The notes beneath the pieces are model-generated. The model was not told where the DNA came from, ran no database searches, and saw nothing but the letters and a program-made list of their open reading frames with translations. 64,000 nucleotides of DNA from a virus, in IMG/VR virus record IMGVR_UViG_3300030943_000008, positions 1 to 64,000 of that record, one strand, 5' to 3'. Position numbers and translations under genes: made by a program. Below, in pieces: positions 36,924-54,030 of this stretch (within the stretch, counting starts at the first letter, position 1; every line of letters starts with the position of its first letter).

Positions 36924-37217
36924 ATGTCGATTGTTCTTCAAAAAATGCCGGTCGGTTATCCTTACGGGGTTAGTCAACATGATCCTGATGGGGCGTATGT
37001 CTGGGGTGGCGGAGAAAGCACCAACGGGAAATACCAAATTGTTGTGGCTGGACCGCTTCACGGGACGCTAGATCAATATCGGGATGCGCTGACCGAATGG
37101 CTGGAGACGCCAGTTTCCATCGTTCTGAGTGCGCCGCTCGCTCGTCCTGAACCTGATGAAAATCCGCAACGCGAATTTTTGAGCATCATTCTCCAACCGG
37201 CGGCGAGGACGAACTGA
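36924..37217 (+). CDS. Hypothetical protein before the portal
   Basis: 97 residues. KMPVGYPYGVSQHDPDGAYV, then a strand pair and a helix (QYRDALTEWLETPVSIVLS). Ends overlapping the portal start (TGATG). Unknown function. Confidence 0.55.
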   Translation: MSIVLQKMPVGYPYGVSQHDPDGAYVWGGGESTNGKYQIVVAGPLHGTLDQYRDALTEWLETPVSIVLSAPLARPEPDENPQREFLSIILQPAARTN

Positions 37218-39688
37218 TGGCATGGGGCGGAAAGCGCGAAGGCGCAGGACGGAAGCCGGCCAGCACCACCGGCAAGAAGCCAAACCCGCGCAAGGAGCGC
37301 GCACCGGCCGTGCCGAAGCTCAATAGCCGCGCCACCGCCGCGCCACCCGAGACTATCCCGGCTGAACCCGCCCGTCCGTTTGACGCCCGCGCGCTGGCGA
37401 TGATGCTCCCCGAGATTCAGGCGATCAGCGAGAAATACGCGCGGAACAAGAAAGCGCGGAACCCGGACCAGAACCCGTTCCGGCTGCCTAAGTTTCCGAA
37501 GTCGGCGATTCCGCCCGGCGGCGGTATGGCGATGGATAACGCGCTGGTGAGCAATACCAACTTCGCCGGCGATCAATGGCTGAATGGCGGGGACGGATTC
37601 GCAGAGGAAGGGCTGGTATTCCTCGGATACCCGTACCTGTCGCAACTCGCGGAGCGCACCGAATACCGCAACGCATCGGAGACGATCGCGGACGACGCGA
37701 CCCGCAAGTGGATCGACTTCGACGTCACAGGCGACGAAACCGAACAGCAGCGCCAGCGCGCCAAGGATCCGACCGGCTTCGACGAGCGCATGGCCGACCC
37801 GGACCAGCGCAAGAAGCGCATCACCGACGCTGGCAAACTCGACAAGATCAAGGCGCTCAAGGACGATCAGGAACGTCTCGAGGTTCAGGCCAGGTTTTAC
37901 GACATGAGCCGCGGCGACGGGTTTTTCGGCCGCATGCACCTTTACTGCGGCATCGGCGAGGGCGTGTGGGACAATCCGGCTGAACTGGCGTCGTCGCTTG
38001 GCAATAGCCGTGACGCCATGAGCAAAGGAAAGGTCGCGATCGGCTCGTTCAAGGAGCTCAAGGCTATCGAACCGGTCTGGACCTACCCGCAGATGTACAA
38101 TTCGAACAATCCGCTGGCGCCGGATTTCTACAACCCGCAGCGGTGGTATGTGCTCGGCCGCGAGATCGATGCATCTCGGATGATGACGTTCATCGGACAT
38201 CCGGTGCCCGACCTCCTGAAACCCGCCTATGCGTTCGGCGGCCTGTCGCTGTCGCAGATGTTGAAACCATACGTCGACATCTGGCTGACCACCCGGCAAT
38301 CCGTCGCGGACCTGATTCACAGCTTTTCCGTCATGGTGCTGATGACGGACCTTTCGACAATCCTGCAGCCCGGCAACGCCGGCGCGCTGATGGCTCGCAT
38401 CGCGCTGTTCAATATGCTGAGGGACAACCAAGGCGCATTCGTCATCAACAAGGCGACAGAGGATTTCAAGAACGTGTCGGCGTCGCTGGGTGGTCTGCAC
38501 GAGCTGCAAGCGCAGGCGCAGGAGCATTTGTGCTCGGCAACCCGCATCCCTTTGGTCAAATACACCGGGATTTCGCCGTCAGGCTTGAATGCCTCGTCGG
38601 AAGGCGAGATCGCCGTCTACGATGACACGATCAGCGCATACCAGAACCGCTTCATGCGGCCGAACTTGGTCAAGGTGGTCAATTTCCAGCAATTGTCGCT
38701 TTGGGGCGAGATCGACCCGGAAATCACCATCACGTTCAACCCTCTCCGCGCCCTGACGCTGGCCGAAAAAGGCCAAAAACAGAAGGACGACGCCGACCGG
38801 GATATCAAATACATCGACGCTGGCGTTCTGGCCCCCGAGGAAGTACGGCGGATCATCATCGACGACCCAGATCTGCCGTATGCGGGGCTGGATCCGGACG
38901 ACGTTCCGGAGCCGCCTGCCGAGGAAGGTCTGCTAGGCGCCGGCGCGGGTGGTGCCGCGACTGAGTTCGAAAAGAACGCAGATGGCGATTCCGATCAGGG
39001 GGGCGGGGCTACCGATGCCGGCCTCCCTTTCGGCTCTGATGCGGCTTTCAACGAATCGGATCATCCGCGGGCAGCGAACGGCGAGTTCGGTTCCGGTGGC
39101 AGTGCCGCACAATCCAGCGAATTGCATGAGGCCTCGCCGACTGAGAAGAAAGCCGCACGCGCGTCGCGACTGCTGGAACGTCTCGGCGTCGGTGCGGAAA
39201 CCGATGGCGCGGCGACTGCGCTGACCAGCTCGGTTGACGATCTGGAAAGTCACGCAGAAATCCTGTCATCCGATGACGATGACGAGGACTTGTCTGCGGA
39301 GCGCCGCGACGCTGCTGCAGCCATCGGTAAAGCGGAAGCCGATTTGGTCAGCTATACGCGCCGCCTGGCTGCTGGCATTGCGCAGATTGCCGGCCTCGGC
39401 AAGGTTCGGTTGCCGGACGTGCCCCTCGGTTCCGTGCCTGACGATCTCAATGGCGCCGATCTGGCGGCGCTTCACAAGGCGGCCAGCGGGATCGATGCGG
39501 CCGCGATTGACGATGATATCCGGGATGCTCGGACATCGCTGCAGGATGCCGTCGAAACCGGCGATGAGGACGAGGTTTCCGAGGCGCTGGACGGTCTCGC
39601 CAGCGTGCTTCAAACGGGAATGCTGAAAAGCTTTGGCGCGCTCAAGGCGATGGCGGAAATAATGGAAAAGGCGCGCCAGAGGCAATAG
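37217..39688 (+). CDS. DUF1073-type portal protein with C-terminal extension
   Basis: 823 residues. Basic start (MAWGGKREGAGRKPASTTGK); the core (about 110-570) has YRNASETIADDATRKWIDF, RMHLYCGIGEG, RWYVLGREIDASRM, KPYVDIWLTTRQSVADL and LCSATRIPLVKYTGISPSGL, matching DUF1073 phage portals, the 12-fold ring through which DNA enters the head. After it come a linker and a 200-residue helical extension. Residues 613-625 (ESDHPRAANGEFG) repeat a tag found at the start of the ART-Nudix protein at 45470. The C-terminal extension is longer than in usual portals. Confidence 0.88.
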   Translation: MAWGGKREGAGRKPASTTGKKPNPRKERAPAVPKLNSRATAAPPETIPAEPARPFDARALAMMLPEIQAISEKYARNKKARNPDQNPFRLPKFPKSAIPPGGGMAMDNALVSNTNFAGDQWLNGGDGFAEEGLVFLGYPYLSQLAERTEYRNASETIADDATRKWIDFDVTGDETEQQRQRAKDPTGFDERMADPDQRKKRITDAGKLDKIKALKDDQERLEVQARFYDMSRGDGFFGRMHLYCGIGEGVWDNPAELASSLGNSRDAMSKGKVAIGSFKELKAIEPVWTYPQMYNSNNPLAPDFYNPQRWYVLGREIDASRMMTFIGHPVPDLLKPAYAFGGLSLSQMLKPYVDIWLTTRQSVADLIHSFSVMVLMTDLSTILQPGNAGALMARIALFNMLRDNQGAFVINKATEDFKNVSASLGGLHELQAQAQEHLCSATRIPLVKYTGISPSGLNASSEGEIAVYDDTISAYQNRFMRPNLVKVVNFQQLSLWGEIDPEITITFNPLRALTLAEKGQKQKDDADRDIKYIDAGVLAPEEVRRIIIDDPDLPYAGLDPDDVPEPPAEEGLLGAGAGGAATEFEKNADGDSDQGGGATDAGLPFGSDAAFNESDHPRAANGEFGSGGSAAQSSELHEASPTEKKAARASRLLERLGVGAETDGAATALTSSVDDLESHAEILSSDDDDEDLSAERRDAAAAIGKAEADLVSYTRRLAAGIAQIAGLGKVRLPDVPLGSVPDDLNGADLAALHKAASGIDAAAIDDDIRDARTSLQDAVETGDEDEVSEALDGLASVLQTGMLKSFGALKAMAEIMEKARQRQ

Positions 39689-40534: not shown

Positions 40535-40801
40535 ATGGCGGAGAACATCACGCGGCAGATGAAGGCGTTCCTCGAAGCGCGCCGGGACTTCCTGATGAAC
40601 AACCGGCCGGCCTGCGTGGGATCGAATCAAAATCCGTGGCAGCCTGGCATTCAAATGATACCGGGTCGATTCGTTGGACTGACGTGTGAAAGCGCGCCGC
40701 CGGTGCGCCTCATCTGCCAGGGGACACCAGCCCAATGGATGTGCTCTAAATGCAAGCGATCGTGGACGCAGGAACCGGAGCCGAAAGATGATGCAACGTA
40801 G
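40535..40801 (+). CDS. Small cysteine-containing protein
   Basis: 88 residues from ATG (TTG at 40529 is an alternative). ITRQMKAFLEARRDFLMNNR helix, then cysteines C28, C50, C60, and CSKCKRSW, possibly zinc-binding. Overlaps the next gene by 14 bp. Unknown function. Confidence 0.55.
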   Translation: MAENITRQMKAFLEARRDFLMNNRPACVGSNQNPWQPGIQMIPGRFVGLTCESAPPVRLICQGTPAQWMCSKCKRSWTQEPEPKDDAT

Positions 40802-41657
40802 TCCGTACCTGATTGATGGACCGGCTGTGATCTCGTTCAGCGGCGGCAGGACGTCGGGCTACATGCTGTTCAAGATCGTCGAGGCTTACGGCGGCGAACT
40901 GCCCAGCGACATCGTGGTTGCATTTGCCAACACCGGGAAAGAGCGCGAGGAAACGTTGCGGTTCGTGCACGAATGCGGCGTGCGGTTCGGCGTCCGCATC
41001 CGTTGGCTGGAATGGCGCGACATCAGCGTTGGCTACGAGGAAGTCGGTTACAACAGCGCCAGCCGCATGGGCGAGCCGTTCGACGCGCTGATCCGGAAGA
41101 AGAAGCGCCTGCCGAACTGGCAAGAGCGGTGGTGCACGTCGTTCCTGAAACTAAAACCGTTGTTCGGCCTGGCCGCGACATTTGGGTGGGCTGCGGGGCA
41201 ATACGCCGAGGTGGTTGGGCTGCGCAACGACGAAGGCCTGCGGATATTCAAGGGCATGGCGAACGCGGAAAAGAACGGGCACCGGATGCTCTATCCGCTG
41301 GCGCGCGCCAAAGTCGACAAGGCGACTGTCATGGAGTTCTGGTCCCGGATGGACTTCGACCTCGGGCTCGAACCGCATGAAGGCAATTGCGACCTGTGCT
41401 TCATGAAAGGGCGCGGGATCAAGAAGCGGATCATTCGCGCGCGCCCCGATCTCGCCGGCTGGTGGTCCGACAAGGAAAGCCAGCAGAAGGGAAAGCAGGA
41501 ACGCGGCTGGTTCGACCGGCGCGACAGCATTGCTGGTTTGGCGGAGGAAGTCCGCCGCGCGCCCGATTTCTTCGACGAATCTGATGGCTACGAGCATGAT
41601 GTAGAATGCGGGCTGCATTGCGAACCGCAACAGGGCGAATCTCATGAGAAAGCGTAA
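40788..41657 (+). CDS. PAPS-reductase-like PP-loop protein
   Basis: 289 residues. SFSGGRTSGYML (16-27) is a PP-loop of adenine-nucleotide alpha hydrolases (ATP pyrophosphatase class); VAFANTGKEREETLRFVHEC follows as in PAPS reductases. LPNWQERWCTSFLKLKPL and GNCDLCFMKGRGIKKRI give conserved cysteines for possible thiol or cluster chemistry. Phage members are often labelled PAPS reductase; roles suggested for the wider class include sulfur transfer and DNA phosphorothioation (DndC-like). The actual substrate is unknown. Confidence 0.8.
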   Translation: MMQRSPYLIDGPAVISFSGGRTSGYMLFKIVEAYGGELPSDIVVAFANTGKEREETLRFVHECGVRFGVRIRWLEWRDISVGYEEVGYNSASRMGEPFDALIRKKKRLPNWQERWCTSFLKLKPLFGLAATFGWAAGQYAEVVGLRNDEGLRIFKGMANAEKNGHRMLYPLARAKVDKATVMEFWSRMDFDLGLEPHEGNCDLCFMKGRGIKKRIIRARPDLAGWWSDKESQQKGKQERGWFDRRDSIAGLAEEVRRAPDFFDESDGYEHDVECGLHCEPQQGESHEKA

Positions 41658-42690
41658 GGGCGAGAAGGTACTGCGCGCGGTGTTCCCCAATGCGGGGATT
41701 CAGGCGGAATACCGCCGCCGCCTTGACGCGATGATCAATGATATGGCGGCCTCCTATCAATATTGGATCGCCGCGGCCTATCGCGCCAACGAGACCAGTA
41801 TTGCGATGGACGCAAAACAGGTTCGCGTGACGGCGGTTGAAACGCAGATTGGTACGAACGCCCGTGGGCGCGTCTGGTTTTCCTTTGTTGACGGCGAAAT
41901 GTTACGCGGCAAAAATGGCGTTGGCAGAACATGGAACTCGCGCGTTGCGGCGGAGACAGCCGGTATCAAAGCGGCTGGCGCGCAGGCCATCGTCACCGAG
42001 GCGATAAAGCACGGCAGCCGGTTTGATTTTGAGACGCTGATGTCGCTTCCCGTCCCGGAAACGCCTGTGGGCAGCCTGCAGGAACGGCTATCCACCCTCG
42101 GCGCGCAATGGTCGGCGCGCATCGATGCCGCGGCGCCGAAGCTGGCCGAATGGTTTCGCCAGGCAGTCAGCACCCGTTCCGGCGCGGCCCTCAAGAAAAT
42201 CCTCAAGGAAGGCGGGATGTCCGTCGAATTTCAGATGACGCCTGCGATGCGGAACGTCGCGCAGGCGAGCGTCGCGGAAAATGTGGCGTTGATCCGCTCT
42301 ATCGGCGAAAAATATCATTCGCAGGTTGAAGGGATGGTGATGCGATCCGTCACCACCGGGCGCGACCTCGGCGGATTGGTCAAGGAACTGGAGCATGAAC
42401 TCGGTCTGACGCGGAAACGCGCGGCCTTCATAGCCTTAGATCAAAACAACAAAATGACGGCTAACTTCACGACGGTGCGGCAGATCGAAGTCGGCATTAC
42501 CGATGCTATCTGGTTGCATAGCCACGCCGGGAAAGTCCCGCGCCCGACGCATCTTGCGAATAACGGAAAACGCTATTCTGTCGCAGCCGGCTGGTATGAT
42601 CCCGATCCGAAGGTAAAACGCTTCATCCGCCCTGGTGAGTTGCCCCGGTGCAGGTGTACCTCCCGCTCCGTAGTGAAAGGCTTCACCTGA
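41644..42690 (+). CDS. MuF-type head morphogenesis protein
   Basis: 348 residues. The C-terminal 110 residues hold the family hallmark: RAAFIALDQNNKMTANFTTV, DAIWLHSHAGKVPRPTHLAN and LPRCRCTSRSVVKGF, as in SPP1 gp7/Mu gpF minor head proteins, which enter the prohead through the portal region. The N-terminal part is helical with WIAAAYRANETSIAM. Overlaps the PP-loop gene by 14 bp and the macro-domain gene by TGATG. Confidence 0.88.
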   Translation: MRKRKGEKVLRAVFPNAGIQAEYRRRLDAMINDMAASYQYWIAAAYRANETSIAMDAKQVRVTAVETQIGTNARGRVWFSFVDGEMLRGKNGVGRTWNSRVAAETAGIKAAGAQAIVTEAIKHGSRFDFETLMSLPVPETPVGSLQERLSTLGAQWSARIDAAAPKLAEWFRQAVSTRSGAALKKILKEGGMSVEFQMTPAMRNVAQASVAENVALIRSIGEKYHSQVEGMVMRSVTTGRDLGGLVKELEHELGLTRKRAAFIALDQNNKMTANFTTVRQIEVGITDAIWLHSHAGKVPRPTHLANNGKRYSVAAGWYDPDPKVKRFIRPGELPRCRCTSRSVVKGFT

Positions 42691-43241
42691 TGAAACTGAT
42701 TTTGTGCGACCGCAACGCCAATCTTTGCAGCCACTGGCGTCAGTGGTTCGGCGGAGTGCCAGACGTATCCATAGTTCAAGGGGATTTCTTCGCGCAGTAT
42801 GCCGATGCTGCGGTGAGCCCAGCGAATAGTTTCGGGTTCATGGATGGCGGTATCGATCAGGCGTTCTTGGATCATTGGGGCTACGATCTGCAGGACAGGA
42901 TTCAGGATTGGATCAAAGAGAACGGCGAAATCCTCGTTGGCCAAGCCATCACCGTGCCCGTTTTGAAAAAGGAATGGTGTGCGGTCGCTCGCGTGATTTC
43001 CGCGCCGACCATGCGGACGCCGCGCCGGATCGTGGATGCCGATGCTGTCCGGCTTTCCACGCGCGCCGCGCTGCGCGAGGCAACGCGGATCGGTGCAACG
43101 TCGATCCTGATGACCGGAATGGGTGCCGGCGCTGGCGCAGTTCCGGCCCATATCTGCGCCGAGCAGATGCGCAAAGGGTGGGGCGACGTGTTCGAGCCGA
43201 AGCCGTTCCCGAAGTCGTGGCGTGAAGCGGCGGCGATGTGA
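42690..43241 (+). CDS. Macro-domain protein (ADP-ribose binding/hydrolysis)
   Basis: 183 residues from the ATG in TGATG. AAVSPANSFGFMDGGIDQAF (41-60) is the N-terminal macro-domain motif with the Asn and Gly/Asp residues of the ADP-ribose pocket; SILMTGMGAGAGAVPAHICA (about 145) forms the second loop. Macro domains bind ADP-ribose and can remove it from targets or hydrolyse related signals. It lies 2.2 kb from a gene with an ADP-ribosyltransferase domain, suggesting matched activities. Confidence 0.88.
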   Translation: MKLILCDRNANLCSHWRQWFGGVPDVSIVQGDFFAQYADAAVSPANSFGFMDGGIDQAFLDHWGYDLQDRIQDWIKENGEILVGQAITVPVLKKEWCAVARVISAPTMRTPRRIVDADAVRLSTRAALREATRIGATSILMTGMGAGAGAVPAHICAEQMRKGWGDVFEPKPFPKSWREAAAM

Positions 43242-43261
43242 TGATTAATTCGAGGGTAACC

Positions 43262-44146
43262 ATGGGTGATCGACCGCTGGCTATAGATTTGTTCACCGGC
43301 CTTCATGGTTGGTCTGAGGGGCTTGTCGCCGAGGGGTATCGGGTTGTCGGTTTCGACATTGAGGATATGTGCGGACAGTTCGGTCAGAAGCGACCGGACC
43401 ACGTCAGCCTGGTTATCCAAGACGTTCTTACGCTGCACGGATCGCAATTCAAGGATGCGGCGCTGATCGTCGCGTCGCCGCCGTGTCAGGCATATTCATG
43501 GATGGCGATGCCGTGGAAACTGGCGAAGGCCAAGGCGGCGGCGATTCGCGCGGATACGACCGGCCAATCGCTGGCTGATCTGAATCGGCTGTTCAACGCC
43601 TGCTTTCGAATCCAGAAGGAAGCCAGCATTGCGGCGGGGCGGCACATTCCGATGGTGATCGAGAACGTCCGGGGAGCTCAGCCATGGGTGGGCCGCGCGC
43701 GGTATAATTTCGGGTCGTTTTATCTGTGGGGCGACGTGCCGGCGCTGATGCCGATGACGGTGAAGGCCACAAAGGTGCCAGGCTTTCGCTTCGATGGCTC
43801 TGGAAAGACTTTCCAGAGCGCGAGCGTTGCGGAACATTCCGACGCCACAAAGGTGCCAAGCGCGGACGGCGGAAGGCGCACTGACAAGGGCAAAGGCGCG
43901 CGGTTCACGTCGCGGGACTGCGGGATCGAAGGCCGTAAAATGCCCGGCATCGAATTGAGTGAGGTGGGATTCAACGTCGCGGCCGCGCGGCAATACGCGC
44001 ATTTGGTTGAGGGGGCTGAATATGTGAGGACAGCCGACGACAAGCGCCAGCACATCGGCATCAACCGCAAAATGGCCTCTGCCATGATCGCCAAGATCCC
44101 GCTTCCCTTGAGCCGTCACATCGCGGCAACCTACCGAGAGACCTGA
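43262..44146 (+). CDS. C5-cytosine DNA methyltransferase
   Basis: 294 residues from the ATG after CGAGGGTAACC (an ATG at 43241 is an alternative). LAIDLFTGLHGWSEGL (motif I), IVASPPCQAYSW with catalytic Cys75 (motif IV) and MVIENVRGAQ (motif VI) are the C5-MTase set; VGFNVAAARQ lies near motif X. No restriction partner is nearby, so it is an orphan enzyme likely guarding phage DNA. A lysine/glycine-rich loop (GRRTDKGKGARFT) sits in the target-recognition region. Confidence 0.9.
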   Translation: MGDRPLAIDLFTGLHGWSEGLVAEGYRVVGFDIEDMCGQFGQKRPDHVSLVIQDVLTLHGSQFKDAALIVASPPCQAYSWMAMPWKLAKAKAAAIRADTTGQSLADLNRLFNACFRIQKEASIAAGRHIPMVIENVRGAQPWVGRARYNFGSFYLWGDVPALMPMTVKATKVPGFRFDGSGKTFQSASVAEHSDATKVPSADGGRRTDKGKGARFTSRDCGIEGRKMPGIELSEVGFNVAAARQYAHLVEGAEYVRTADDKRQHIGINRKMASAMIAKIPLPLSRHIAATYRET

Positions 44147-45258: not shown

Positions 45259-45473
45259 TGCCGATTGACCAGCCCCCAGCAATCATTCAGCCGGCTCAAC
45301 CCGGGAAAAAGTTCTCCGTTAATGCCGGTGTCGGCGGGTGGTGGGCTCACATCGAAGGCCATGCATATCCGTTTGGCGCATGGCGTATGGACCGTGGCCC
45401 TTATCCGTTCCGATGGATGGCCGCCATTCAGTTTCCGATCGAGCGATTGACCAAAGACGGACCACGCCGATGA
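45258..45473 (+). CDS. Small beta-rich protein
   Basis: 71 residues. KFSVNAGVGGWWAHIEGHAY then FRWMAAIQFPIERLTKDG, alternating strands with many tryptophans. ATGA overlap with the ART-Nudix gene. Unknown function. Confidence 0.6.
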   Translation: MPIDQPPAIIQPAQPGKKFSVNAGVGGWWAHIEGHAYPFGAWRMDRGPYPFRWMAAIQFPIERLTKDGPRR

Positions 45474-47224
45474 CCGACTTTAAGGAAAGCGACCACCCGC
45501 GCGCTCCAGACGGCAAGTTTGGATCTGGTGGCGGCGGAAGTTCATCCACGTCAAAACCATCGGTGTCTTTTTCGGCCCCTCTGGATACTGAGGAACGGCA
45601 GGCCCTGTCCGATTATGCCGGGCAAGCTTACGTAGACGTTAATGAATCGCTGCGGACTGGCGCGAAGATGACGCCGGAAAATCGCCTGTTAGTGGAGACT
45701 ATGGACGACGCATTTGAAAAGGCGTCAACCGACCACGAGATGACTGTCTACCGATCAGTGGTATCGGGATTTTGGCAACCGCTCGTAGGCAATGTGAAGC
45801 CTGGCGATGTCGTGACCGACAAATCGTACACATCAACAACCACAAATCCAGAAGGAGTGAAGCGGTTCGGGTCTCATACGGTTGAGATCAAAGTTCCAAA
45901 GGGCGCGAAAGCAATCCCGATGGATGGTATTTCCAAATACGAGCACGAGTCGGAAGTCGTGTTAGGACGGGGGACACAATTTGAAGTCGTAAGCACGACC
46001 CCACAAAAAACAGTCCTTCGGGTTATCCCGGCCGGCACAATTGGAAAAGACGAGACGATGACCGCTGTTCTTGCCGCGAACTCTGCGATTCCGGCCAGCT
46101 TGCGCAAGAAGGCCTACGACTCGTCCGCGCTGGCGGGGATTACCAAGCATGCAGCCGGCGTCCTGCACGTCGCGCCCGATGGCGATATTCTGCTGCTGCG
46201 CCGTGCCGGCGAGCCGGGCAAGGACAATTTCGTCGGACATTGGGCGTTGCCAGGCGGCGGCGTTGACGATGGTGAGACCCCCGAGCAGGGCGCCGTCCGC
46301 GAGAACCGCGAGGAAATGGGCGTCGACGTCGATCCCGCGAAGCTCAAGCCGCTGGACCGCACCAAGACGCCGAACGGCATGGCCTTCCACACGTTCGCGC
46401 ATCCGGCCGCGACCAAATTTTCCCCGACGCTGAACGACGAGCACAGCGGCGCCGGCTGGTTCGGTTTGCATGAGCTGCCGCGGCCGCTGCATCCCGCCGT
46501 CGAAAAGACGCTCCGCGATCAGGTCGGCGTCAAGGACGACATGTCACCAGAGGATGCGAAGACGGCCGGAGAGGGTCTGGCGTCGTGGGCGGCAGAACCG
46601 GGCGAAGATTTTCCGGCAACTGATTCGGCGCTGCTGCTGGCGCTTGATCGAGACTCCGTCCGAGAGACGGATAGCAGCGGGCGCCTGCACATCGAAACAG
46701 CGAATATCTGCAAGGCATGCGTTTCGCCCTATCGAGGGTCGGAAATCCCCGGATGGAAAGACCTCGGGCTCGATCCTGATGAAGTCTATCAACTGCTTCG
46801 TGATCCGGATGAGCTGCGAAAGTCTGTGGCGAGCGCGAACGGCATTCAGTTGCTGCGCAAGCACATTCCGGTCAGCGCAGAAGATCACCAGCCATGGGAT
46901 GTTGTTGGCGCGGTGGGTACGAATGCAAAGTGGGTTGATCCATACATTCAAAACGGCCTGACGGTGTGGCCTGCCGCCGATATCGCCAGCGTTCTGTCCG
47001 GCAAGAAGAAAATGCTGAGTCCGGGGTATCACTACAAGCCGGACCTGACGCCAGGCGTTTTTGAGGGCGTGAAATACCAAATTGTGATGCGGAATATTAT
47101 CTTCAATCACCTCGCCATCGTCGAGGATGGGAGACAGGGAAGCGACATCGTGATCGGTGACTCAGATCCGTTCGCGGCGGGATGGGAGATCGTCGAGGCT
47201 GCGATTTTGGCTTTGCGCCCGTAA
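45470..47224 (+). CDS. Three-domain protein: ADP-ribosyltransferase, Nudix hydrolase, DUF2213 prohead-protease-like domain
   Basis: 584 residues. Residues 5-20 (KESDHPRAPDGKFGSG) are a tag shared with the portal. Residues 35-190 are an ART domain: catalytic Arg in VYRSV (R95), STS-type strand SYTSTTT (119-125) and the E-x-E in YEHESEVVLGRG (E160/E162). Residues 225-355 are a Nudix domain with box GGVDDGETPEQGAVRENREE. Residues 395-575 are DUF2213 (RLHIETANICKA, CVSPYRGSEIPG, LSPGYHYKPD, RNIIFNHLAIVEDGR). If the protease part cuts the chain in the prohead, the ART and Nudix parts could be injected with the DNA. Its C-terminal partner domain appears to be cut off by the insertion at 47225. Confidence 0.88.
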   Translation: MTDFKESDHPRAPDGKFGSGGGGSSSTSKPSVSFSAPLDTEERQALSDYAGQAYVDVNESLRTGAKMTPENRLLVETMDDAFEKASTDHEMTVYRSVVSGFWQPLVGNVKPGDVVTDKSYTSTTTNPEGVKRFGSHTVEIKVPKGAKAIPMDGISKYEHESEVVLGRGTQFEVVSTTPQKTVLRVIPAGTIGKDETMTAVLAANSAIPASLRKKAYDSSALAGITKHAAGVLHVAPDGDILLLRRAGEPGKDNFVGHWALPGGGVDDGETPEQGAVRENREEMGVDVDPAKLKPLDRTKTPNGMAFHTFAHPAATKFSPTLNDEHSGAGWFGLHELPRPLHPAVEKTLRDQVGVKDDMSPEDAKTAGEGLASWAAEPGEDFPATDSALLLALDRDSVRETDSSGRLHIETANICKACVSPYRGSEIPGWKDLGLDPDEVYQLLRDPDELRKSVASANGIQLLRKHIPVSAEDHQPWDVVGAVGTNAKWVDPYIQNGLTVWPAADIASVLSGKKKMLSPGYHYKPDLTPGVFEGVKYQIVMRNIIFNHLAIVEDGRQGSDIVIGDSDPFAAGWEIVEAAILALRP

Positions 47225-47979
47225 ACCCATCCATTGGGCAATTCTTCATGAGGCTTCAGTCTCTTTGTTGAAGTGCCGTCGTTTATCCATCGGGTGCCCA
47301 TCGCTACAGTTTTTATTATGTCGCTGTTGATATTGAAGCGGCCTCTTTTCCAGCCTGCTGGAATTTTGTCGTCAGAGTTAATTCGACGATCGTTTTTTCC
47401 ATCATTTATCCAAAAAACGGCTGTCACGGTCAGGGATGCTTTCAAGGCAGCGGTGGAACGTTCTTCGGGGGTGGTTTGGCTCATTCTGGTGACGGCCCCC
47501 TTTTGACCTGCGATTTTTCTTCTCGCTGCGCCGAGGTTCTGTTGGCGCGACAACGCGCGTTCGCGTCGAGCTTCTGGCGAATGCCTTCGGTGGGCGTCAC
47601 TGATCGCCTTACTGACTTGGAGTCGTTTTTCCGGTGAGTATGAAGCGGCCAACTCCCTCGCTGATTCCGAAGTCATTCCATCCCCGCCAGGAGAAATGTT
47701 CGTCAGAGGTCCGTGCCCCGTTTTTCTTCGCCCAATAGCTGCGATGAATGCGCTTTCAATTTCTAGCGCTTCGATCTCCGTGACGCCCTCTCTTATGAAA
47801 ACGAATGGCACATAGCCCATCTCTTCCACGGTTCTCTTCAAAAAGGCGTTCTTCATGTGGTTGTGCCGTGAGGGGACCAAGGTACTTTGGATTCTAGTTC
47901 CGCATCCTTTGCCGACATATCGAGGAATGGCGTTTTCGTCGAAGAGGATGTAGACATAGAAGATCGCTGGATCGGACAT
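47107..47979 (-). CDS. GIY-YIG homing endonuclease inserted in the head operon
   Basis: 290 residues from ATG. FYVYILFDENAIPRYVGKG is the GIY-YIG variant, followed by TEIEALEIESAFIAAIGRR (catalytic Glu helix). NUMOD-like region SPEKRLQVSKAISDAHRR and two copies of a W-I-N-D-G...P-x-G-W-x-x-GR motif (WINDGKNDRRINSDDKIPAG, then WINDGTSTKRLKPHEELPNG) for DNA binding. The last 30 residues are read antisense through the end of the ART-Nudix gene, so the stop is not native. AT-richer than the neighbours. Confidence 0.85.
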   Translation of the reverse strand: MSDPAIFYVYILFDENAIPRYVGKGCGTRIQSTLVPSRHNHMKNAFLKRTVEEMGYVPFVFIREGVTEIEALEIESAFIAAIGRRKTGHGPLTNISPGGDGMTSESARELAASYSPEKRLQVSKAISDAHRRHSPEARRERALSRQQNLGAARRKIAGQKGAVTRMSQTTPEERSTAALKASLTVTAVFWINDGKNDRRINSDDKIPAGWKRGRFNINSDIIKTVAMGTRWINDGTSTKRLKPHEELPNGWVYGRKAKIAASTISHPAANGSESPITMSLPCLPSSTMAR

Positions 47980-48181
47980 GGCAAAACTCAACGTTAAGGA
48001 AATTCGGGATAATCTCCGGCTTAGTCAGCCGGAATTTGCGGCGCGCTTTGGTTTTAATCTCGGAACGCTCCGACAGTGGGAGCAAGGCCGGCGCCAACCT
48101 GATAGCGCTGCCAGGGTGCTGCTTTCCGTCATCTCCCACGCTCCGAATGTCGTCGATGAGGCACTATCTATAGGCACGTGA
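47978..48181 (+). CDS. XRE-family helix-turn-helix regulator
   Basis: 67 residues. KEIRDNLRLSQPEFAARFGF, NLGTLRQWEQGRRQPDSAAR is a textbook Cro/CI HTH of the YiaG/HigA-antitoxin-like type. Its ATG (47978-47980) overlaps the ATG of the GIY-YIG gene on the other strand (47979-47977), so the two divergent genes share their start region. Usually such proteins pair with a toxin; no toxin is evident here. The gap 48182-48273 holds no gene. Confidence 0.85.
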   Translation: MAKLNVKEIRDNLRLSQPEFAARFGFNLGTLRQWEQGRRQPDSAARVLLSVISHAPNVVDEALSIGT

Positions 48182-48273: not shown

Positions 48274-49302
48274 ATGACTGCGCTCCGGGATGCATTGCGC
48301 AAGAAATATCGAAGCCCGAAGGATGCACTTCAGGCGCTTGGCCTCGACGAGGCACTTTTGACCCCTCAGGAGAACATCATGGCGAAGCCGACCCGAATTG
48401 GCGCATTGGTCCTGTCCAGTACCGCCGCCGCCGTTGCCCCGCTGCTGGCGATGGATTCCAAGGTCACGCTTCCGAAGGACCTATTCGCGGGTCTGACATC
48501 CAAGAACATCAAGGCCAACAAGGCGGCGCTGCTCGCCGGCGTCCGGCTGGCGCTGGACGGCAAGCTTCGTAAGGGCCTGGCGCTCGATGCCTCCATGGCC
48601 GGCCTCGCCAAGGCCATCGACGCTTTCGAGGACATGGACGACGCGGTCGACGAAGCCGGCGAGAATGATCTGGAGAAGGTCGCCTCGGTCGATCCGGTCG
48701 CCGCCGAAATCCTGAAGGAAAAGAAGGACGACGACGGCGTGTTCGACTCTGCCGACCTGATGGCCTTCCTGAAGGGCAAGGGCATGTCGGACGAAGATAT
48801 TGCCGCCGCCTGCGCGATGCTCCCGGCTGCTGGCGCCGTCGACGAAGCCGAGACCCCCGAAGAAAAGGCCACCCGCGAGAAGAAAGAAGCGGAAGCCGCC
48901 GCAGCGAAGGACGCCGAGATGAAGGACATGGTCACGAAGCCGGCGATGGATGCTGCGCTGGCCGCCATCCGCACCGCCACCATCAAGGAAGTGCGCGACA
49001 CCGAGCGCGGCATCCGCCAGGCGCTCGCCGATGTCGCGCCATACGTTGGGGAAATCCCGGCGTCGATGGCCTTCGACAGCGCCGCCGACGTCCGCCGCCA
49101 CGCGCTGACCATGCTTGGCGTCGAGGGCGCCAAGACGATCCACGCTGACGCCCTGGCCCCGGTGCTGGCCGCGCAGCGCAAGATCGGCCACCGCACCTCC
49201 GAGCAGTCTGTCCGCGAAATGCCGATGGGCATGGATAGCGCCAGCATCGACAGCGCCACCAAGTACGCGCCCGGCCTGGCTCACATCGAAATCGGCGGCT
49301 GA
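48274..49302 (+). CDS. C-terminal part of a DUF2213-type head protein (scaffold-like), probably split off
   Basis: 342 residues. The first 35 (LRDALRKKYRSPKDALQALG) look like the end of a longer protein; an internal ATG at 48379 (MAKPTRIGAL) has the better ribosome site (CAGGAGAACATC). Then helical segments, an acidic Lys/Glu/Ala coiled coil (EEKATREKKEAEAAAAKDAE) and a conserved end RGIRQALADVAPYVGEIPAS with MAFDSAADVRRHALTMLGVE. In other phages I know this C-terminus belongs to the same chain as DUF2213 and may act as scaffold. Here it is separated from it by the GIY-YIG/XRE insertion. Confidence 0.7.
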   Translation: MTALRDALRKKYRSPKDALQALGLDEALLTPQENIMAKPTRIGALVLSSTAAAVAPLLAMDSKVTLPKDLFAGLTSKNIKANKAALLAGVRLALDGKLRKGLALDASMAGLAKAIDAFEDMDDAVDEAGENDLEKVASVDPVAAEILKEKKDDDGVFDSADLMAFLKGKGMSDEDIAAACAMLPAAGAVDEAETPEEKATREKKEAEAAAAKDAEMKDMVTKPAMDAALAAIRTATIKEVRDTERGIRQALADVAPYVGEIPASMAFDSAADVRRHALTMLGVEGAKTIHADALAPVLAAQRKIGHRTSEQSVREMPMGMDSASIDSATKYAPGLAHIEIGG

Positions 49303-50356: not shown

Positions 50357-51463
50357 ATGAACCGGCAAGAAGCGCGAGCAGAATGGCAGAAGGTCAAAGG
50401 CGCCTATGAGGCGGCTGGCGTCATCCTGCCGGGTGTCACGATGTTCACCCCGGACGAATTTCGGAACAGCACCCTTTCCATCAACGATCTGGCGATGGAC
50501 GCGGCCGGCACGCTGGTGACGGACCCGAACTCGGCAATCCCCGCCATTCTGACCACGTCGATCGATCCCGAAGTGATCCGCATCGCGTTCGCGCCGACCC
50601 AGATGGGCGAAATCCTCGGCGGCGAGCAGAAGGTCGGCGACTGGCTCGACGAAACCCGGCTGTTCCCGGTCATCGAAGATACCGGCGAAGTTTCGAGCTA
50701 CGACGACTATTCGAACAACGGCATGGCTGGCATCAACTTCAACTACCCGGCCCTGCAGTCCTACCTGTTCCAGACCATCCTGCATTACGGCGAACGCGAG
50801 ACCGCGCGCGCCGGCCTGATGCGAATCAACTATGTCGGCGATCTCAACCGCGCCGCCGCCAATATGCTGAACCGGTTCGCCAACCTGACCTATGCGTTCG
50901 GCGTCCAGGGGCTGCAGAATTACGGCCTCATCAACAACCCGTACCTGTCGAGCTTCATCACGCCGATCGTCAAGGCGTGGGGCGGCACCAGCTGGTTCGA
51001 TCAGGGCTCGCCAGCCGCGACCGCCAACGAGGTCTACAACGACATCGTCGCCCTGGTGAACAAGGCCATCGCGCAGACCAACGGCACGGTCGACCTCAAG
51101 GCCAGCATGACGCTGGCGATGTCGCCGGGATCGGAAGTCGCGCTGACCTTCACGAACAGTTTCGGCGTCAACGTGACCGACCTGCTCAAGAAGAACTTCC
51201 CGAACATGAAGATCAAGACCGCCGTCCAATACGGCGCCACCACGACCTTCAACACGCAGGGCTATTCGCCGGTCGGCAACGTCGTGCAGTTGATCATCGA
51301 CGAGATCGACGGCCAGAAGGTCGCGAAGCCGGCGTTTAACGAAAAGATGCGCGCGCACAAGATCATCCCGGAACTGTCGAGCTGGAAGCAGAAGCTCACC
51401 GGCGGAACGTGGGGGGTTATAATGCGCCTGCCCCTCGGCAGCGTGGGCATGATCGGCGTCTGA
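50357..51463 (+). CDS. Major capsid protein (DUF2184-like)
   Basis: 368 residues. LSINDLAMDAAGTLVTDPNS, ILTTSIDPEVIRIAFAPTQM, ETRLFPVIEDTGEVSSYDDY and AFGVQGLQNYGLINNPYL match the DUF2184 capsid family of HK97 fold. Preceded by the decoration protein and followed by a terminator, the usual place of the most expressed head gene. Ribosome site AACAGGAGCGACATCG. Confidence 0.88.
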   Translation: MNRQEARAEWQKVKGAYEAAGVILPGVTMFTPDEFRNSTLSINDLAMDAAGTLVTDPNSAIPAILTTSIDPEVIRIAFAPTQMGEILGGEQKVGDWLDETRLFPVIEDTGEVSSYDDYSNNGMAGINFNYPALQSYLFQTILHYGERETARAGLMRINYVGDLNRAAANMLNRFANLTYAFGVQGLQNYGLINNPYLSSFITPIVKAWGGTSWFDQGSPAATANEVYNDIVALVNKAIAQTNGTVDLKASMTLAMSPGSEVALTFTNSFGVNVTDLLKKNFPNMKIKTAVQYGATTTFNTQGYSPVGNVVQLIIDEIDGQKVAKPAFNEKMRAHKIIPELSSWKQKLTGGTWGVIMRLPLGSVGMIGV

Positions 51464-53394: not shown

Positions 53395-54030
53395 ATGAAA
53401 ACATCCCCTGAAATCATGCGAAGCGCTGGCGTCTACGAGATTTGCATCAAGCGCGGAGCCAAGCCACCCCAATTTTATATTGGACAGGCAACCATCCTGC
53501 GGAAGCGGCGGACGGTTCATCTTCGGGCGCTCGCCGCTGGGAAACACGGAAATTCTAGACTTCAACGGGCCTACAATAAATATGGCCCAGAATCGTTGAG
53601 CTTTCGCCCGTTGCTGGTCTGTGAGCGCAAGAAAGAAACGCTCGACATGTACGAGAAGGCCATTCTCGATAGCTACCAGAGAGACGCAATCTTCAATATG
53701 TGCCTCGAATGCGTCGGGTCCAAGCTTGGTGTCAAAATGTCGGATGCCACGAAAAGGAAGATCGGTGCCGCCAATAAGGGAGCGTTCCGATCGCAAAGTC
53801 ACAGGGATGCCGTCCGCCTGTCGAACCAGACTCGTATCGTTAGTGCTGAAACCAGAAAGAAGATGGCAATAGCGCGAACTGGAAACAAAAACTGTTTGGG
53901 GCGAAAGCTGACTGACGAGCATAAAGCCAACGTAGGGGCGGGACTCAAGGGGATGAAAAAGACCAAGGAAGAACTTGAACGACGGGGCGCCACTAGGAGA
54001 AAGAATGCCGAATCTCGAGGGTATTATTGA
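53395..54030 (+). CDS. GIY-YIG homing endonuclease with NUMOD3 repeats
   Basis: 211 residues. AGVYEICIKRGAKPPQFYIG is the GIY-YIG site (G-V-Y ... Y-I-G), with LRALAAGKHGNSRLQRAYNK and a Glu helix (DMYEKAILDSYQ). Four NUMOD3-like DNA-binding segments follow (MSDATKRKIGAANKG, SQSHRDAVRLSN, SAETRKKMAIARTG, LTDEHKANVGAGLKG). AT-richer than its neighbours, inserted between connector and neck genes in the same direction. Confidence 0.92.
   Translation: MKTSPEIMRSAGVYEICIKRGAKPPQFYIGQATILRKRRTVHLRALAAGKHGNSRLQRAYNKYGPESLSFRPLLVCERKKETLDMYEKAILDSYQRDAIFNMCLECVGSKLGVKMSDATKRKIGAANKGAFRSQSHRDAVRLSNQTRIVSAETRKKMAIARTGNKNCLGRKLTDEHKANVGAGLKGMKKTKEELERRGATRRKNAESRGYY

Follow-up and report, generated by a model that had tools for sequence, protein, structure and literature searches.

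The window analysed here, a 64,000-nucleotide stretch of viral DNA (positions 1 to 64,000 of the 69,874-base virus record IMGVR_UViG_3300030943_000008), carries among its head genes an open reading frame (ORF) in which a short tag, an ADP-ribosyltransferase (ART), a Nudix hydrolase and a DUF2213 head maturation protease are joined on a single chain. The start codon of this ORF and the stop codon of the one before it overlap in the sequence ATGA. We propose that the chain serves as a precursor through which the head maturation protease enters the prohead together with the two enzymes, and we give this explanation as a whole a probability of roughly 0.55. The features concerned, all on the plus strand, are listed here, with an arrow marking each candidate cut.

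45470-47224, plus strand: TAG-ART-Nudix-DUF2213 fusion protein, 584 amino acids (aa), complete ORF
45479-45532, plus strand: putative cargo tag FKESDHPRAPDGKFGSGG, residues 4-21 of the fusion protein
45581-46018, plus strand: ART domain of the R-S-E type, residues 38-183, with R95, S122 and E160-x-E162
46037-46141, plus strand: disordered linker, residues 190-224, with candidate site RKKAYD217↓SSALA (D codon 46118-46120)
46151-46516, plus strand: Nudix hydrolase domain, residues 228-349, with the box at 263-285
46601-46657, plus strand: low-confidence linker, residues 378-396, with candidate site LLLALD393↓RDSV (D codon 46646-46648)
46661-47164, plus strand: DUF2213 assemblin-like head maturation protease, residues 398-565, with invariant H465, S517 and H547
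39047-39100, plus strand: second tag FNESDHPRAANGEFGSGG, in the C-terminal extension of the portal protein

A sequence-only reading of this ORF had placed the three domains on one chain, and Pfam, PHROGs and a sequence search of the PDB all agreed. The Pfam matches far exceeded the curated cut-offs: ADPrib_exo_Tox (PF03496) at residues 38-183 (E 1.7e-22), NUDIX (PF00293) at 228-349 (E 2.5e-20) and DUF2213 (PF09979) at 398-565 (E 1.3e-38). PHROGs returned the head maturation protease family phrog_2229 (4.6e-77) together with MutT/NUDIX and Alt-like ART families. Foldseek matched all three domains among viral models and, against the PDB, found that the ART resembles VIP2, C3 and ExoS, so that the ART match was strong both by sequence and by fold; the lack of an ART match, which the earlier reading had set as its refuting outcome, did not arise. 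The active site is of the R-S-E form, with R in strand 1, S122 in the STS strand and an (E/Q)-x-E motif; the residues named in the earlier reading were the right ones and were conserved across 26 distinct ART relatives (R95 100%, E162 100%, S122 96%, E160 84%).

The Nudix box, previously given as residues 262-282, was indeed complete and here spans G263-V285, with E269, R277, E278, E281 and E282 each present in all 32 relatives. A proline lies 16 residues past the box. We dropped it as a signature of ADP-ribose Nudix enzymes because it does not discriminate: MutT too has a proline at the corresponding position, and the residue is absent in two carriers of the same trio (L008 and L122). Nor does the sequence of the box distinguish between substrates. 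The assignment of the third domain as a DUF2213 head protease also held, both by its matches and by its position beside scaffold and major capsid protein (MCP) genes. H465, S517 and H547 were each invariant across 56 distinct homologues, and the catalytic order of herpesvirus assemblin is likewise H-S-H. AlphaFold2, run with 22 aligned sequences, gave a mean predicted local distance difference test score (pLDDT) of 80.6, with folded regions at residues 31-186, 227-352 and 398-563 and linkers at 190-224 and 378-396 below 50. The predicted template modelling score was 0.37 overall, which suggests that the domains have no fixed mutual arrangement; the model thus depicts the fusion as three folded domains on disordered linkers.

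We first spotted a candidate cut motif in the head proteins by eye and then compared all tripeptides between the core head proteins and the other ORFs of seven DUF2213 phages. AMD was the most enriched, with 32 occurrences in 12,296 aa of head proteins versus 10 in 84,062 aa of other ORFs (Fisher 9e-21), and MDS was second. The extended motif [AG]MD[SAG] occurred 19 times in head proteins and five times elsewhere, against a shuffle mean of 1.2, while control motifs were flat. The AMD enrichment was replicated on other contigs (49 versus 2, p 7e-14), some of which share close relatives, so that the loci are not all independent. In a second protease family KAD↓[AS] was enriched, but this evidence is weak, involving low-complexity AKADAEAK stretches. 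Most capsid proteins examined carried A[MFL]D-A/S, or with the preceding residue [LM]A[MFL]D-A, just ahead of the conserved fold, and the AMD site lies at the probable point of N-terminal removal of the MCP. In phage E217, residues 1-65 of the MCP are invisible in virions, which its authors leave open as cleavage or disorder (PMC10329688); the related MCP of Pa193, gp26, reads AMD64-S65-N66 and its structure is seen only from residue 66. For comparison, the known prohead protease codes are L/I-X-E in T4 and A-X-E in SPN3US (PMC9026906, PMC5694885). As a separate observation, Pa193 gp24 (PDB 9b40_G), described as a scaffolding protein, matches DUF2213 over its first 170 residues and keeps the His, Ser and Asn-His positions; the word "protease" is absent from the text of the Pa193 preprint.

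In the window, the large terminase (29431) and a minor head protein (49362) accompany the following head genes, in which similar sites were found.

37217-39688, plus strand: portal protein, with AMD107 near the N-terminus and a C-terminal extension that carries the second tag copy
41644-42690, plus strand: MuF head protein, with AMD56↓A
48274-49302, plus strand: scaffold, a separate gene that matches the C-terminal half of phrog_2229, with AMDS, AMDA, AFDS and GMDS sites
50357-51463, plus strand: MCP, with predicted maturation site LAMD48↓AAG just ahead of the conserved fold

The fusion protein carries a looser form of this independently identified head-protein site in each of its two linkers, at D217 and D393, while its other similar matches fall in ordered parts. 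D217 was invariant in a first five-member alignment, and most close relatives have a D just before the start of DUF2213. The placement of these residues therefore makes it plausible that the chain's own protease frees ART and Nudix inside the prohead. The sequence-only reading had already suggested self-cleavage in the prohead; the linker sites make that suggestion more plausible, although we still infer the cleavage itself.

That reading had overlooked an 18-residue motif that opens the fusion protein and recurs in the C-terminal extension of the portal (39047). A degenerate DNA scan of viral contigs for this tag returned at least 119 stretches, on over 100 contigs, with the consensus DAx[FW]xExDHPRxxDGKFGSGGG. 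Across 111 occurrences among the matches listed, F or W at -4 and E at -2 were fully conserved; the upstream aromatic residue had been used to filter the list, and E at -2 and its neighbours lay outside the DNA search pattern. In the same set, other features that were not searched for also recurred: D at -7 (58%), A at -6 (54%) and a downstream Gly/Ser run. The two copies in the window share 14 residues, nine of them with different codons, and across contigs the codons vary freely while the residues hold, which argues for selection on the peptide.

The tag usually lies after a portal domain and before a cargo domain. Among the matches listed, 48 of 77 upstream segments matched a portal family, and head genes were present at 94 of 106 tag loci, in the same ORF at 60. 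The 93 downstream proteins in this set included ART (18), topoisomerase IB (11), Nudix (9), DUF2213 (7) and PBECR (4) domains, and zeta toxin, acetyltransferase and inorganic pyrophosphatase domains were also seen. Our search of open-licence literature on portal-topoisomerase IB fusions found no paper. Two tags per polypeptide, placed between successive domains, were observed in L037, L073, L096, L113 and L115. On these patterns, the tag may act as a targeting or retention signal for the head. A broader proposal, which we hold tentatively and with the odds somewhat against it, is that the tag is a general head-cargo signal: enzymes behind it, joined to portal or DUF2213 protease through D↓A/S junctions, would be packaged, released when the maturation protease cuts these junctions, and delivered to the host along with the DNA. 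In that case the trio would be one cassette among many, alongside topoisomerase IB, PBECR RNases, zeta toxin, acetyltransferase and inorganic pyrophosphatase.

The full architecture of the window, tag-ART-Nudix-DUF2213, was also found on contig IMGVR_UViG_3300050821_007424 (L008, 765 aa). L122 and L055 pair tag-ART-Nudix with a downstream DUF2213-like protease that is divergent and of phrog_6216 type, as does L095 in a partial frame; L123, at a contig end, has the swapped order Nudix-tag-ART-DUF2213. Judged by its pairing with two divergent protease families and by this alternative order, the trio is modular. Nudix-DUF2213 proteins without ART were commoner (L003, L140, L142, L149, L156). Nudix also occurred behind a portal (L151) or free-standing (Burkholderia phage Bm1); for ART, the other carriers were portals (Orisa03) and MuF (L010, L011). 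The nearest relatives of the window's gene (L003/L006) start at about residue 195 of the fusion protein, and from this start it is probable that a Nudix-protease gene existed first and gained the tag-ART part at its upstream end. Among annotated isolated phages none covered 80% of the fusion query, and a search of one genome per bacterial or archaeal species returned nothing related to the trio, while the tag appeared on just three contigs. Two side observations concern the same records. In L122, L055 and L095 the tag follows a short stretch, phrog_2423 (MPLxxGSSxxAISxNIxTE), that may be another head-associated module, and phrog_6216 is listed as of unknown function while its matches here comprise Nudix, a divergent head protease and scaffold.

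Other genes in and around the head-gene block were as follows.

40686-41657 and 43238-44146, both plus strand: PAPS-reductase-like protein and DNA methyltransferase, both within the head-gene block
42648-43241, plus strand: Macro-domain protein (Pfam 6.4e-14), directly after the MuF gene
47107-47991, minus strand: GIY-YIG-like, homing-endonuclease-like ORF, between the protease and scaffold genes
47978-48181, plus strand: small helix-turn-helix (HTH) protein, between the protease and scaffold genes
53395-54027, plus strand: second homing-endonuclease-like gene (phrog_314), in the late region

We rejected the Macro gene as part of the trio system, as this window alone, of 157 records, yielded a Macro match. 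We also rejected the idea that the homing-endonuclease-like insert split a single protease-scaffold gene. Relatives have a short gap or overlap at this junction in place of the GIY-YIG/HTH insert, and close relatives already have two genes there, so that the insert sits between genes.

In the mechanism that we favor, the precursor would carry protease, ART and Nudix together into the prohead, with the tag marking the cargo for head entry or retention. DUF2213 would be a serine protease akin to herpesvirus assemblin, cleaving after D in the capsid protein, scaffold, MuF and portal, at AMD followed by S or A and at looser [A/G/L][M/L/F/Y]D forms. It would also cut its own chain at about D217 and D393, yielding a tag-ART fragment of about 23 kDa and a Nudix fragment of about 19 kDa. 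Both enzymes would exit with the DNA; ART would modify host proteins in the manner of T4 Alt, probably on arginine given its E-x-E motif, and Nudix would hydrolyse a nucleotide diphosphate, possibly an ADP-ribose derivative. Injection is suggested by the precedent of T4 Alt and by gene context. Several points weigh against this mechanism. Motif enrichment by itself is no proof of cleavage, and the sites in the fusion, AYD↓S and ALD↓R, are looser than AMD↓[SA]; it is unusual for R to follow the cut, and D393 may already form part of the DUF2213 fold at its start. In the nearest relatives lacking ART, the first site is retained close to the N-terminus, where cleavage may do no more than remove a short leader. 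Many tagged proteins have no recognised cargo domain, and fragments that are packaged need not be ejected.

In one alternative, ART and Nudix act in the producing cell late in infection, or their target is the packaging machinery itself; both are lost along with the protease at maturation, and neither is injected. Most fragments of protease and scaffold do leave the prohead in HK97- and T4-type heads, and action on packaging components is itself offered as an alternative in PMC9503650; we nevertheless regard this explanation as unlikely. Gene shuffling could also have produced the fusion passively, with tag-ART joined upstream of a Nudix-protease gene, Nudix serving in nucleotide housekeeping and the position of the protease carrying no functional meaning. 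The start of L003/L006 near residue 195 fits such an addition to an existing gene, but the catalytic residues are kept, and the trio is found again with another, divergent protease family and in swapped order; we consider a passive origin distinctly improbable. We give very little credence to the idea that the protein is an antibacterial toxin carried by the phage, in the class of MuF polymorphic toxins, with the Macro-domain protein encoded nearby as its antidote. While the ART is similar in fold to an antibacterial ART-ARH effector pair (8za7) and the Macro protein is encoded close by, MuF is a separate gene rather than part of the fusion chain, and Macro turned up in none of the other records examined. 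Moreover, the enzymes that classically remove ADP-ribose from arginine are ARHs rather than Macro domains.

The shared tag and the AMD↓[SA] code are a more interesting lead than the trio itself. If both are true, head-borne enzymes and their release would be predictable from sequence across a large group of phages, much as was achieved for T4 with its capsid targeting sequences and L/I-X-E code. The question of which enzymes are brought in at the first moment of infection would become a direct one for proteomics, and a route for loading chosen proteins into phage heads might follow. DUF2213, listed as uncharacterised in Pfam, gains a concrete predicted specificity.

The sequence-only reading had called the trio an undescribed system, which was too strong. 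In its accessible text, Iyer 2022 (PMC9503650) describes ART-portal, ART-MuF, Nudix-portal and Nudix-MuF fusions as well as Nudix joined to a capsid-processing serine peptidase, and proposes injection; the exact trio is not named there. As in those fusions, ART and Nudix are attached to phage head proteins, but here both share the chain of the protease. MuF-ART proteins (L010, L011 and Microbacterium phage Percival) likewise carry a related ART on a head protein, but their carrier is MuF and the chain has neither Nudix nor protease. The head protease families phrog_2229, phrog_3778 and phrog_6216 share the DUF2213 protease, with an N-terminal Nudix in the latter two; they have no annotated ART and their scaffold is usually fused, whereas here it is a separate gene. 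T4 Alt, among the internal proteins of that phage, is also an ART of the R-S-E clade, packaged in the head and cut at both ends by the prohead protease, with a short N-terminal targeting peptide. Alt is a separate protein, while the ART described here is physically joined to the protease. Polyvalent proteins (Iyer et al. 2017, PMC5512222), as characterised in the accessible text, similarly gather several unrelated enzyme domains on one late-gene polypeptide among virion genes, with a C-terminal assemblin-like peptidase. The present fusion is short by comparison (584 aa), and its ART is of the R-S-E rather than the HYD2 clade usual for that class. Neither the tag nor the candidate cut site was found in the passages searched, from open-licence papers including PMC9503650 and PMC5512222. 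Set against what that text covers, the general idea of joining ART and Nudix to head proteins is already published, and the modularity of the trio, the AMD-type candidate cut site and the shared tag appear to go beyond it.
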